Positions 40,656 through 44,982 of a stretch of DNA of 59,400 bases are shown piece after piece (positions within the stretch are counted from its first letter, which is position 1; every line of letters starts with the position of its first letter). The position numbers and the translations under genes were made by a program. Under the pieces are notes generated by a model. The model was not told the DNA's origin, did not search any database, and was given only the letters and a program-made list of their open reading frames with translations. Origin of the DNA: Rhodoglobus sp. (lineage in GTDB: Bacteria; Actinomycetota; Actinomycetes; Actinomycetales; Microbacteriaceae); the NCBI GenBank assembly GCA_025464445.1, contig JAODLY010000018.1:1-59400 (forward strand). The letters run 5' to 3'.

Positions 40656-41150
40656 CTAGTGGGCGCCCTCCGCCTTGAGCTTCTCGATGCCGGCCTGCAC
40701 GATCGCCTCGGCGTCTGCCGCGTTGCCCCAGCCCTCGACCTTCACCCACTTGCCGGGCTCGAGGTCCTTGTAGTGCTCGAAGAAGTGCTGGATCTCCGCC
40801 CGCGTGAACTCGGGGATGTCGTCGATGTCCTGGATGTGGGCCCAACGCGGGTCCTTTGCCTGCACGCAGATGACCTTCGAGTCGATGCCGGCGTCATCCG
40901 TCATGTTGAAGACGGCCACCGGGCGCACCTTGATGCCCACACCCGGGAAGGTGGGCGCGTCGAGCAGCACGAGAGCGTCGACCGGGTCGCCATCGAGGCC
41001 GAGGGTGTTCTCGAAGAAGCCGTAATCCGTGGGGTAGCCGAACGCCGTGAACAGGTAGCGGTCGAGGAACACGCGACCGGTCTCGTGCGAGACCTCGTAC
41101 TTGTTGCGGCTCCCCTTGGGGATCTCGACGATGATGTCGTATGCGGCCAT
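40656..41150 (-). CDS. ppa: Inorganic pyrophosphatase, family I
   Basis: The 164-aa enzyme hydrolyses PPi to drive biosynthesis. [11 protein letters not shown] near residue 10 and [23 protein letters not shown] near residue 42 show the conserved Lys, Arg, Tyr and the DxDPxD signature that binds metal and PPi. ATG 41150 has AGGAG upstream. The gene is convergent with the NlpC/P60 gene without any gap, and divergent from tilS across a shared AT-rich promoter. Confidence 0.97.
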
Positions 41151-41196
41151 GTGCTGCTCCTTGAAAGTCTGCCCGCCGTATCCGGTGGATGCTGCA

Positions 41197-41206
41197 ATAA
41201 CGTTAT
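41197..41206. promoter_or_regulatory. Symmetric -10 shared by ppa and tilS
   Basis: ATAACGTTAT is a perfect palindrome, so TAACGT can be read as a -10 on both strands. On the plus strand TAACGT (41198-41203) is 6 nt before the tilS ATG, giving a leaderless tilS mRNA. On the minus strand it would start ppa with a leader of about 43 nt containing AGGAG. Confidence 0.55.
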
Positions 41207-41209
41207 CGG

Positions 41210-42307
41210 ATGCCGCCAACCCGCCCGAGACTGACCCCCGCGATCGCGGATGTGCGTCGCGCTGTGCGGGCATCCCTGGTCGCCCCGGGCCCACCTTCCT
41301 CCTTCCGAAATGACGGAGATCCGGCCGGTTTCGAAAAGCCGACCAGCAAAAACGGCAACCGCGTACCCGGATCTCCGTCATTTCGGAAGGTGTCGCCGGG
41401 GGCGGCGCTCGTGCTCGTGGCGCTCTCGGGGGGCCCCGACTCGCTCGCGCTCGCCGCGGCCGCCGCGTTCGAGGCGCCGCGCGCTGGCCTGCGGGCCGGC
41501 GCGGTCGTCGTCGACCACGGACTGCAGGCCGGCTCCGCGGATGCCGCGGCTCACGCTGCTGCGCAAGCGACGGCGCTCGGCCTCGCCCCCGTGATCGTGC
41601 GCACGGTCTCGGTGGGTGCGGATGGCGGCCCTGAGGCCGCCGCCCGCGCCGCCCGCTACGGGGCCCTCACGGAGGTCGCGGCGGAACAGGGTGCCGTCGC
41701 GGTGCTGCTCGGGCACACCCTCGACGACCAGGCCGAGACCGTGCTGCTCGGGCTTGCGCGCGGCAGTGGGGCCGCCAGCTTGCACGGGATGGCCGCTGTG
41801 GCCGGGCTATACCGAAGACCGCTGTTGGGCATCCGCCGGGCAACGACGGTGCGGGCCTGTGCCGACGCGGGGCTCGAGGCCTGGATCGACCCGCAGAACG
41901 ACGACCCGGCTTTCACGCGGGTGCGGGTGCGGCAGACCGTGCTGCCGGTGCTCGAAGTCGAGCTCGGCCCCGGCATCCCCGAGGCGCTGGCACGCACGGC
42001 TGAGCAGTTGCGCGAAGATTCCGATGCGCTCGACCACTTCGCGGAGGAGATCGCGGAGGACCTCGCCGCGCACTCTGAGGCGGGAATCTCGCTGCCGGTG
42101 CACGCGCTCGCGACGAATCCGGCCGCCCTGCGCCAGCGCCTGATCAGGCTGGCGGTCGCGAGCGAGTTCCACGTGTCGCTCAGCCGCACCCAGACCCTGG
42201 AGGTGGCCAGGCTCGTGACCGACTGGCACGGGCAGGGACCCATCGATCTGCCGGGGCTTAGGGTGGAACGAAAGAACGGGCTTCTGCTCTTCAGCGCTAA
42301 CGAATAG
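41210..42307 (+). CDS. tilS: tRNA(Ile)-lysidine synthetase TilS with in-frame palindrome insertion
   Basis: TilS makes lysidine at C34 of tRNA-Ile(CAU) and is essential. Residues 61-75 ([15 protein letters not shown]) form the ATP PP-loop; [20 protein letters not shown] near residue 167 and the C-terminal domain are normal. The expected N-terminal helix ([19 protein letters not shown], residues 5-23) is separated from the PP-loop by about 35 odd residues. These are encoded by a palindrome with perfect 24-bp arms (41301-41390), which keeps the frame. ATG 41210 lies 6 nt after TAACGT, so the mRNA is leaderless. hpt follows after 6 bp. Confidence 0.92.
41301..41390. repeat. Perfect-arm inverted repeat inside tilS (element C)
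   Basis: The arms 41301-41324 and 41367-41390 are exact reverse complements over 24 bp; the left arm starts CCTTCCGAAATGACGG. The loop is 42 bp and contains a second weak pairing (GCCGGTTT with AAACGGC). The whole 90-bp unit is a multiple of three with no stop in the tilS frame. Its make-up matches the long intergenic hairpins A, B, D and E of this window. Confidence 0.85.
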
Positions 42308-42313
42308 GACCCC

Positions 42314-42865
42314 ATGGAACTCGCCGACGTTGCCGACGACATCACCGAGGTGCTTTTCACCGAGAGCCAGATCCACGACAAGGTCGCCGAGTTGGCGCGC
42401 AGGGTCGAGCGCGACTATGTCGGCGAACGTCCGCTGCTTGTCGGTGTGCTCAAGGGTGCCGTGATGATCATGGCGGATGTCGCGCGAGAGCTGAAGATGC
42501 ACGTCGACATCGACTTCATGGCGGTGTCGTCCTACGGCGTGAGCACGGAGTCGAGCGGCGTGGTCCGCATCCTGAAGGACCTCGACGCCGACCTGTCCGG
42601 CCGCCACGTGATCATCGTCGAAGACATCATCGACTCGGGGCTCACCCTCGCCTGGCTGCGGGCGAACCTCGAGACGCGGAGTCCGGCTTCCCTCGAGATC
42701 CTCGCGCTGCTGCGCAAGCCGGATGCCGCGAAGGTCGAGGTCGACGTGAAGTACCTGGGTTTCGACATCCCGAACGCCTTCGTTGTGGGGTATGGGCTGG
42801 ACTACGCGGAGAGGTACCGCAACCTCAGCGGGGTCGCGGTACTCGCTCCGCACGTCTACAGCTAG
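42314..42865 (+). CDS. hpt: Hypoxanthine phosphoribosyltransferase
   Basis: The 183-aa enzyme salvages hypoxanthine and guanine to IMP and GMP. VLKGAVMIMADVARE near residue 45 and IIVEDIIDSGLTLAWLR near residue 97 (the PRPP loop with acidic pair) are characteristic, and KYLGFDIPNAFVVGYGLDYAERYRNL is the C-terminal base-binding part. The start ATG 42314 has AGGA 4 nt upstream. The tilS-hpt-ftsH order is standard in Gram-positive bacteria. Confidence 0.97.
   Translation: MELADVADDITEVLFTESQIHDKVAELARRVERDYVGERPLLVGVLKGAVMIMADVARELKMHVDIDFMAVSSYGVSTESSGVVRILKDLDADLSGRHVIIVEDIIDSGLTLAWLRANLETRSPASLEILALLRKPDAAKVEVDVKYLGFDIPNAFVVGYGLDYAERYRNLSGVAVLAPHVYS

Positions 42866-42978: not shown

Positions 42979-44982
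<2,004 letters not shown>

Follow-up and report, generated by a model that had tools for sequence, protein, structure and literature searches.

A palindrome inside the tilS gene of Rhodoglobus sp. is probably one copy of a dispersed two-arm repeat family matched to DUF559 nuclease genes

How does a long and perfect palindrome come to lie inside tilS with the reading frame running through it? The question is raised by a 59,400-nucleotide stretch of DNA from Rhodoglobus sp. (hereafter, the window), one of the 57 contigs that make up a 2.84-Mb assembly, all of which we searched. The palindrome has two inverted arms of 24 nt separated by a loop of 42 nt (Table 1), and it is the longest perfect inverted repeat listed for positions 40800-42800. 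The original prediction held that the arms are exact and that the 90-bp unit is in frame and free of stop codons; both points are borne out by the sequence and by the open reading frame of 365 amino acids, which, following that prediction, we take to be tilS. Its divergent neighbour, presumably an inorganic pyrophosphatase-like gene, lies outside the element. When folded as RNA, the segment 41290-41400 has a predicted energy of -58.8 kcal/mol, compared with -33.1 +/- 3.5 kcal/mol for shuffled sequences (z -7.4; 0 of 200 shuffles as good). A known RNA family was rejected, as the sole Rfam match, MIR7724, scored 18.2 bits where the threshold is 100. An AlphaFold model of TilS alone had a pLDDT of 39.9 and was left out of the analysis.

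Table 1 Positions of the tilS palindrome, its surroundings and the two DUF559 genes of the genome. Positions are those of the window unless a contig (C19, C20) is named.
Feature	Position	Strand	Remarks
Left arm	41301..41324	+	AC-type: CC + TTCCGAAATGACGGAGAT + CCGG; core common to 10 dispersed copies
Loop	41325..41366	+	CCGACCAGCA(AAAA) also in the loops of some other AC copies, at a similar offset
Right arm	41367..41390	+	Perfect reverse complement of the left arm
tilS (tRNA-Ile lysidine synthetase)	41210..42307	+	Reading frame runs through the palindrome
Divergent neighbour of tilS	40656..41150	-	ORF outside the element; start read directly from the sequence
DUF559 gene, AC type	C20:79190-79498		Between AC copies at 78526 and 79579
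DUF559 gene, CA type	C19:43607-43798		Between CA copies at 43469 and 44525

A search of the genome for further arms, proposed along with the original prediction, found many. The arm 15-mer TTCCGAAATGACGGA has 17 exact genomic matches and 24 with up to two mismatches, and its reversed control has none in the genome at up to two mismatches. Since the arm word is repeated across the genome and the reversed control is absent, the tilS palindrome is not a product of chance, which the shuffle z score also rules out. The 24 matches correspond to 10 dispersed paired copies with the AC-type arm TTCCGAAATGACGGAG, tilS included, an isolated degenerate site (C12), and three sites that belong to a tandem array next to one of the copies (C27). 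Every AC copy has the exact 15-mer in at least one arm; 7 of the 10 have it in both, and the remaining 3 have one or two mismatches in the partner arm. A looser pattern, AAATGNNGG...CCNNCATTT, revealed 8 further copies with a sister CA-type arm, AAATGCAGGAG, in which CA replaces AC at the variable spot. These counts would leave out any copies with both arms badly decayed, which the pattern would miss.

The unit common to the AC copies is 86 bp long (TTCCG...CGGAA), and the remainder of the 90 bp is only partly common, with a preceding C in 9 of 9 and a following G in 8 of 9 copies listed. Its length is 86 bp in 7 of the 9 copies listed, 87 bp in one and 98 bp in one. The loops of C11, C20a, C20b, C27a and C30a are related, that of tilS weakly so, and 4 of the 10 AC loops (C20c, C27b, C29, C30b) are unlike the rest. 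The tilS loop aligned to the C30a loop with a score of 13 (P 0.008, uncorrected) and to none of the remaining AC loops significantly in this comparison; CGACCAGCA occurs in the C20a loop at the same offset as in the tilS loop. Four related CA copies have arms agreeing at 22-24 of 24 positions, 14 of which are fixed by the pattern, and loops agreeing at 62-87%. The seven CA copies examined each lie 35-50 bp past the stop codon of unrelated genes. No consistent target-site duplication was visible by eye in the flanks of the copies. A plasmid or phage origin was ruled out, with no match to either at E 0.001.

The outer ends of some copies have peculiarities of their own. Tandem CATTTCGGAAGGGCAGCGCC-like units, corresponding to the arm's outer end, follow one copy every ~22 bp at C27:49047-49105 (L014), and TTCCGAAC-like stutters are found in the left flanks of C30a and C27a. 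The tandem outer-end units look as if replication had slipped at the hairpin foot. Four CA copies (C36, C37, C44 and C48; L255-L258) have an additional outer GTGTCTCC-like sequence, often with CTAG adjacent.

DUF559 is a Pfam family of unknown function, and a search with its profile (PF04480) found two such genes in this genome. The copies recur in pairs about 1 kb apart, and in this genome a DUF559 ORF lies in between (Table 1). Across the genus, the profile gave 51 matches in 16 of 27 genomes; 50 of the 51 loci were examined (G301:C10 was left out), of which 47 were complete enough. Hairpins before and after the gene have an arm core of 8 nt or longer in common at 29 of these 47 loci, compared with 62 of 2162 mismatched left/right pairings and 2 of 247 control ORFs. 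The other 18 loci fail this test, and the 29 matched loci are not independent, since many loci are orthologous. Inverted common words of at least 12 nt join the two flanks at 32 of the 47 loci, against 5.8% of mismatched pairings. The arms vary between groups of DUF559 genes. Matched hairpins surround DUF559 genes in the named records L166, L170, L200 and L213. At a locus of G282 (L266), each of the two hairpins that flank the DUF559 gene repeats the other in inverted orientation, loop included, which suggests recent copying.

In a sample of the phylum, DUF559 is present in 49 of 119 genomes. After 5 incomplete loci were left out of 29, 24 were tested, of which 18 had a long enough upstream region. 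Seven of these 18 share an inverted word of at least 12 nt, against 2.0% of mismatched pairings, and the phylum-wide hairpin search gave one clear pair in the 24 loci. The flanking-arm signal is thus weaker across the phylum than in the genus.

The looser pattern matches 15 of the 27 genus genomes, this one included. The variable spot is not complementary in the matches of G305, G242, G310 and G145 and in both matches of G307, which leaves ten genomes, each with more than two matches; one of the five matches in G311 is also false. For G316, G317 and G319, complementarity was judged among the matches listed, and most of their matches were only counted. A stricter pattern in a wider scan of contigs found at least 115 stretches, and the arm types encountered were AC, CA, AA and TC. 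Among the matches listed, the two variable bases are complementary between the arms in 104 of 106 copies from records not titled as other phyla (mostly Microbacteriaceae) and in 9 of 26 from records titled as other phyla, five being of TG type. A gene with the matching arm was found in 7 of the 10 genomes with at least three AAATG-type copies and in none among the loci read in the other 17 (Fisher P 0.0001, from hand-entered counts). G282, G311 and G317 have AAATG-type copies, yet no matching gene among the DUF559 loci read.

Two sets of records from the wider scan are of separate interest. Pseudomonas records L113, L132, L144, L175 and probably L205 contain TG-type AAATGTGGGAG palindromes of 72-78 bp with a complementary variable spot, possibly another repeat family. 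Scaffold 9 of Microbacterium mitrae (L141) has six TC-type copies in 4.6 kb.

Similarity of the DUF559 proteins is correlated with similarity of their arms (rho 0.47; 0 of 2000 permutations as high), which is partly expected, as flanks are inherited with the gene. The correlation is significant in class I (n=24; 0 of 2000) and not in class II (n=5; 197 of 2000); the motif that separated the classes was crude, and some class II proteins were counted in class I. More telling is the change of arms at one syntenic DUF559 locus of five species (G300, G282, G301, G311, G316), whose neighbours are conserved on both sides in all ten pairings. The five species have five arm sequences; left and right arms match over 15, 23, 20, 12 and 14 nt, and arms of different species over at most 13. 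In every one of the five, the two hairpins resemble each other more closely than they do the hairpins of the other species. At this locus, the left and right arms changed together.

The CA-type DUF559 gene of this genome sits between two genes that we take to be gltA- and dapD-like. In nine genomes these two genes are 2-120 bp apart, with no DUF559 gene; elsewhere the junction has at least 362 bp of other DNA, and in four genomes gltA lies beyond the stretch. The difference may be a gain here or a loss there. At the same junction, past the dapD-like gene, G319 has a solitary AC-type hairpin (L315).

The tilS site itself was compared across the genus. A TilS match was found in 25 of the 27 genomes, and 24 could be placed, G318 being left out by a motif filter. 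A palindrome lies between the first helix and VALSGG in 6 of the 24, this genome included, and is absent from the other 18. The distance from RPRLTP to VAL is 63-91 aa in the six palindrome genomes and 29-51 aa in the other 18, and these linker lengths rule out a conserved TilS linker. A comparison of TilS linkers had been suggested as a check on the prediction that a hairpin element entered a coding region; the unconserved linker and the further arm copies in the genome both uphold it. That the long linker is of ordinary origin and palindromic by accident has a negligible probability, since its arm core is common to nine other paired genomic copies, even if TilS linker length does vary in the genus.

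The frame is kept in all six palindromes, which are of AC type in this genome (G000), of CA type in G311, G282 and G300, and of AA type in G312; G299 has the unrelated arm CGCAACTCATGG. In four of the six, G299 with CGCAACTCATGG included, the arm matches that of a DUF559 gene of the same genome. On a tilS tree, the six carriers fall in one loosely resolved half and three changes of state are needed; a single origin may be compatible with this tree. The site was probably used at least twice, because the G299 arm type is unrelated and recurs at its own DUF559 gene and at further places. Directly 5' of the G299 palindrome (L068) there are ~24-bp tandem units (DRNPLPA-like), which resemble the arm's outer end.

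Three AC copies other than that in tilS are found within or across genes, presumably kinase-like (C30b), mshD-like (C29) and, at a boundary, leuC/leuD-like (C27b). For the kinase-like gene, a usable stretch was obtained from 10 of 15 loci. The C30b loop aligns without gaps to nine palindrome-free orthologues. Its right arm replaces codons and leaves the length unchanged relative to seven of these orthologues, the remaining two being shorter by one residue; its left arm adds four to nine residues. The C27b loop contains the leuC stop and the leuD start, and the start of LeuD aligns without gaps to PDB 3q3w through the arm; three closer PDB matches begin only at residue 7. As judged from these alignments, the loop is native host sequence in two of the four coding AC copies, the kinase-like and the leuC/leuD-like; a 90-bp block simply inserted would not account for these two. 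For the tilS copy, whose loop is weakly of the family type, block insertion would fit. The C29 copy, compared with Mycobacterium MshD (Rv0819), is mainly an insertion. Of the 125 distinct copies listed for other genomes, 7 lie inside ORFs that pass a rough coding filter, some of them probably false frames; we take the recognisable hosts to be MutM-, SMC- and again MshD-like. In a Cryobacterium MAG (L137), a CA copy lies in an MshD-like linker, apparently the one that holds the AC copy of this genome. This linker is apparently a second recurrent coding site.

Compared with Pfam, the DUF559 proteins match DUF559 above the cut-off and AbiEi_4, where present, below it. PADLOC matches the L170 protein to AbiEi models (E 2.6e-8). 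A model of this protein, built with 5 sequences (pLDDT 86.7, pTM 0.80), was compared with known structures using Foldseek. It matched the catalytic domain of the homing endonuclease I-Bth0305I (3r3p, E 4.5e-5) and the AbiEi antitoxin (6y8q, E 9.4e-5), and more weakly Vsr (1cw0, E 0.015); the nuclease fold also matches 3hrl. Nucleases of the 3r3p type are those to which we apply the label EDxHD. The model thus predicts a fusion of an AbiEi-like DNA-binding part and a Vsr/I-Bth0305I-like nuclease. In the accessible part of its description, AbiEi bends DNA and binds 23-bp inverted repeats as a pair, and AbiEi and Rv2827c repress by binding such repeats in their own promoters (PMC7319586). Because AbiEi binds 23-bp inverted repeats, this analogy suggests that the AbiEi-like part may read the arms. 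The protein resembles the AbiEi antitoxin of type IV AbiE in its N-terminal part and in the probable use of ~23-bp inverted repeats, but it is joined to a nuclease. Likewise, its predicted nuclease fold is that of EDxHD/Vsr-like homing endonucleases such as I-Bth0305I, although no intron or intein was seen. The literature searched, mostly without subscription papers, held no joint mention of DUF559 and AbiEi, and its co-mentions of DUF559 and palindromic were unrelated by title and abstract start.

Among known systems, the closest in behaviour is REPIN/RAYT. The accessible text describes dispersed, strongly conserved paired inverted arms with a spacer, one flavour for each single-copy gene (PMC3116915). 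The tilS-type family likewise has paired inverted arms with a spacer, dispersed in 18 copies, and, as far as that text allows the comparison, genes flanked by their own arm flavour (both DUF559 genes here, 29 of 47 in the genus). It differs in its enzyme, which would be an AbiEi/Vsr-like fusion and not a Y1 tyrosine transposase: a search for Y1 (HUH) transposases (PF01797) was negative in all 12 genomes examined and positive in 5 of 14 control genomes, and RAYT/IS200 was rejected as the mover on this result. The GTAG at the repeat foot is also absent here; the flanks of the 18 copies show TTCCG (AC) or GTGCG-like (CA) sequences. REPs inside genes are known, many of them in replication and repair genes, from the part of the source consulted (PMC3733652). 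The likeness to Rickettsia palindromic elements that the original prediction had drawn stands for behaviour and not for membership. Those elements and the CGTC REPs lie in frame within unrelated genes (PMC10969869, PMC3733652, accessible parts), as do the copies in tilS, the mshD-like and kinase-like genes and the leuC/leuD-like boundary; the unpaired CGTC tag is absent here, CA, AA and TC cores having no CGTC and AC having it only within the paired stem. Furthermore, CGTC repeats are described, in the same portion of PMC3733652, without a dedicated transposase, whereas the palindromes here go with a nuclease gene; the host phylum also differs. By the tests run, all on sequences, the family behaves like REPIN/RAYT and is similar to Rickettsia palindromic elements, and it belongs to neither.

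In our view, the tilS palindrome is likely to be a non-autonomous copy of this dispersed two-arm family, in which each arm family is matched to a DUF559 nuclease gene whose product would bind, cut and copy the palindromes. The family, its copies, their association with the gene, the gene-specific arms, the joint change of arms and the in-frame copies are observed in the data presented here. The action of the DUF559 protein on the palindromes, by binding, cutting and copying or moving them, we infer. Each member of the family would have a pair of inverted arms, ~20-24 nt long and separated by a nearly constant distance, with the DUF559 gene itself flanked by two hairpins of the same arm. The AbiEi-like part would bind both arms together in their inverted arrangement, in the way that AbiEi binds its 23-bp inverted repeats, and the nuclease part would nick or cut at the bound arms. 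Repair would then copy the whole unit, or the arms only, to new places. Copies would persist in intergenic DNA and, where the frame is kept, in coding DNA such as the tilS linker.

A further reading, which we put forward tentatively and regard as possible but doubtful, is that DUF559 nucleases write their own arms. By templated repair they would place whole hairpins, or separate arms around ~50 bp of native DNA, and turn weak sites into perfect ones. Writing of separate arms would explain the native kinase-like and leuC/leuD-like loops and the overwriting by an arm with no change in length. It would also explain the nearly fixed spacing and the joint change of arms as the enzyme's specificity drifts. 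If true, it would give a protein family of unknown function a role.

The hairpins might instead be operators of an autorepressing AbiEi-like part, the dispersed copies being its regulon or relics of operators. The left hairpins do lie just upstream of DUF559 genes, and AbiEi and Rv2827c, in the part of the source available, repress through 23-bp inverted repeats in their own promoters (PMC7319586). However, a hairpin with the same arm is also found past the DUF559 stop codon, the seven CA copies come after unrelated genes, past their stop codons, and AC copies are located within or across the frames of tilS and of mshD-like, kinase-like and leuC/leuD-like genes, and we regard operators as unlikely. 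Paired inverted ends, and several copies with related loops, would also be expected of MITE-like elements moved by an ordinary transposase, with the link to DUF559 as a by-product. This is very unlikely given the matched flanks at 29 of 47 DUF559 loci as against 2 of 247 other ORFs, the result of 0 of 12 genomes for Y1 transposases (the only transposase family searched) and the lack of a plasmid or phage match. Immobile hairpins kept by selection as host-useful RNA, as terminators or mRNA stabilisers, would account for the very stable predicted fold and for CA copies shortly past stop codons, but we find them highly improbable, since the arms vary by species and track the DUF559 genes, copies lie within coding regions and the sole Rfam match is far under threshold.

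The preferred reading, a non-autonomous copy of a family matched to DUF559 nuclease genes, goes beyond the original prediction, which had missed that there are nuclease genes to match, that the tilS site was probably used more than once and that arm sequences change from species to species. The tie to palindromes offers a concrete, testable role for a family of unknown function. It would place a second, apparently unrelated, line of enzymes beside the RAYTs for dispersed palindromes, and the loci form a putative natural collection of pairs of protein and recognition sequence. Moreover, the tilS, mshD-like and kinase-like copies show palindromic DNA entering conserved genes while keeping them readable.
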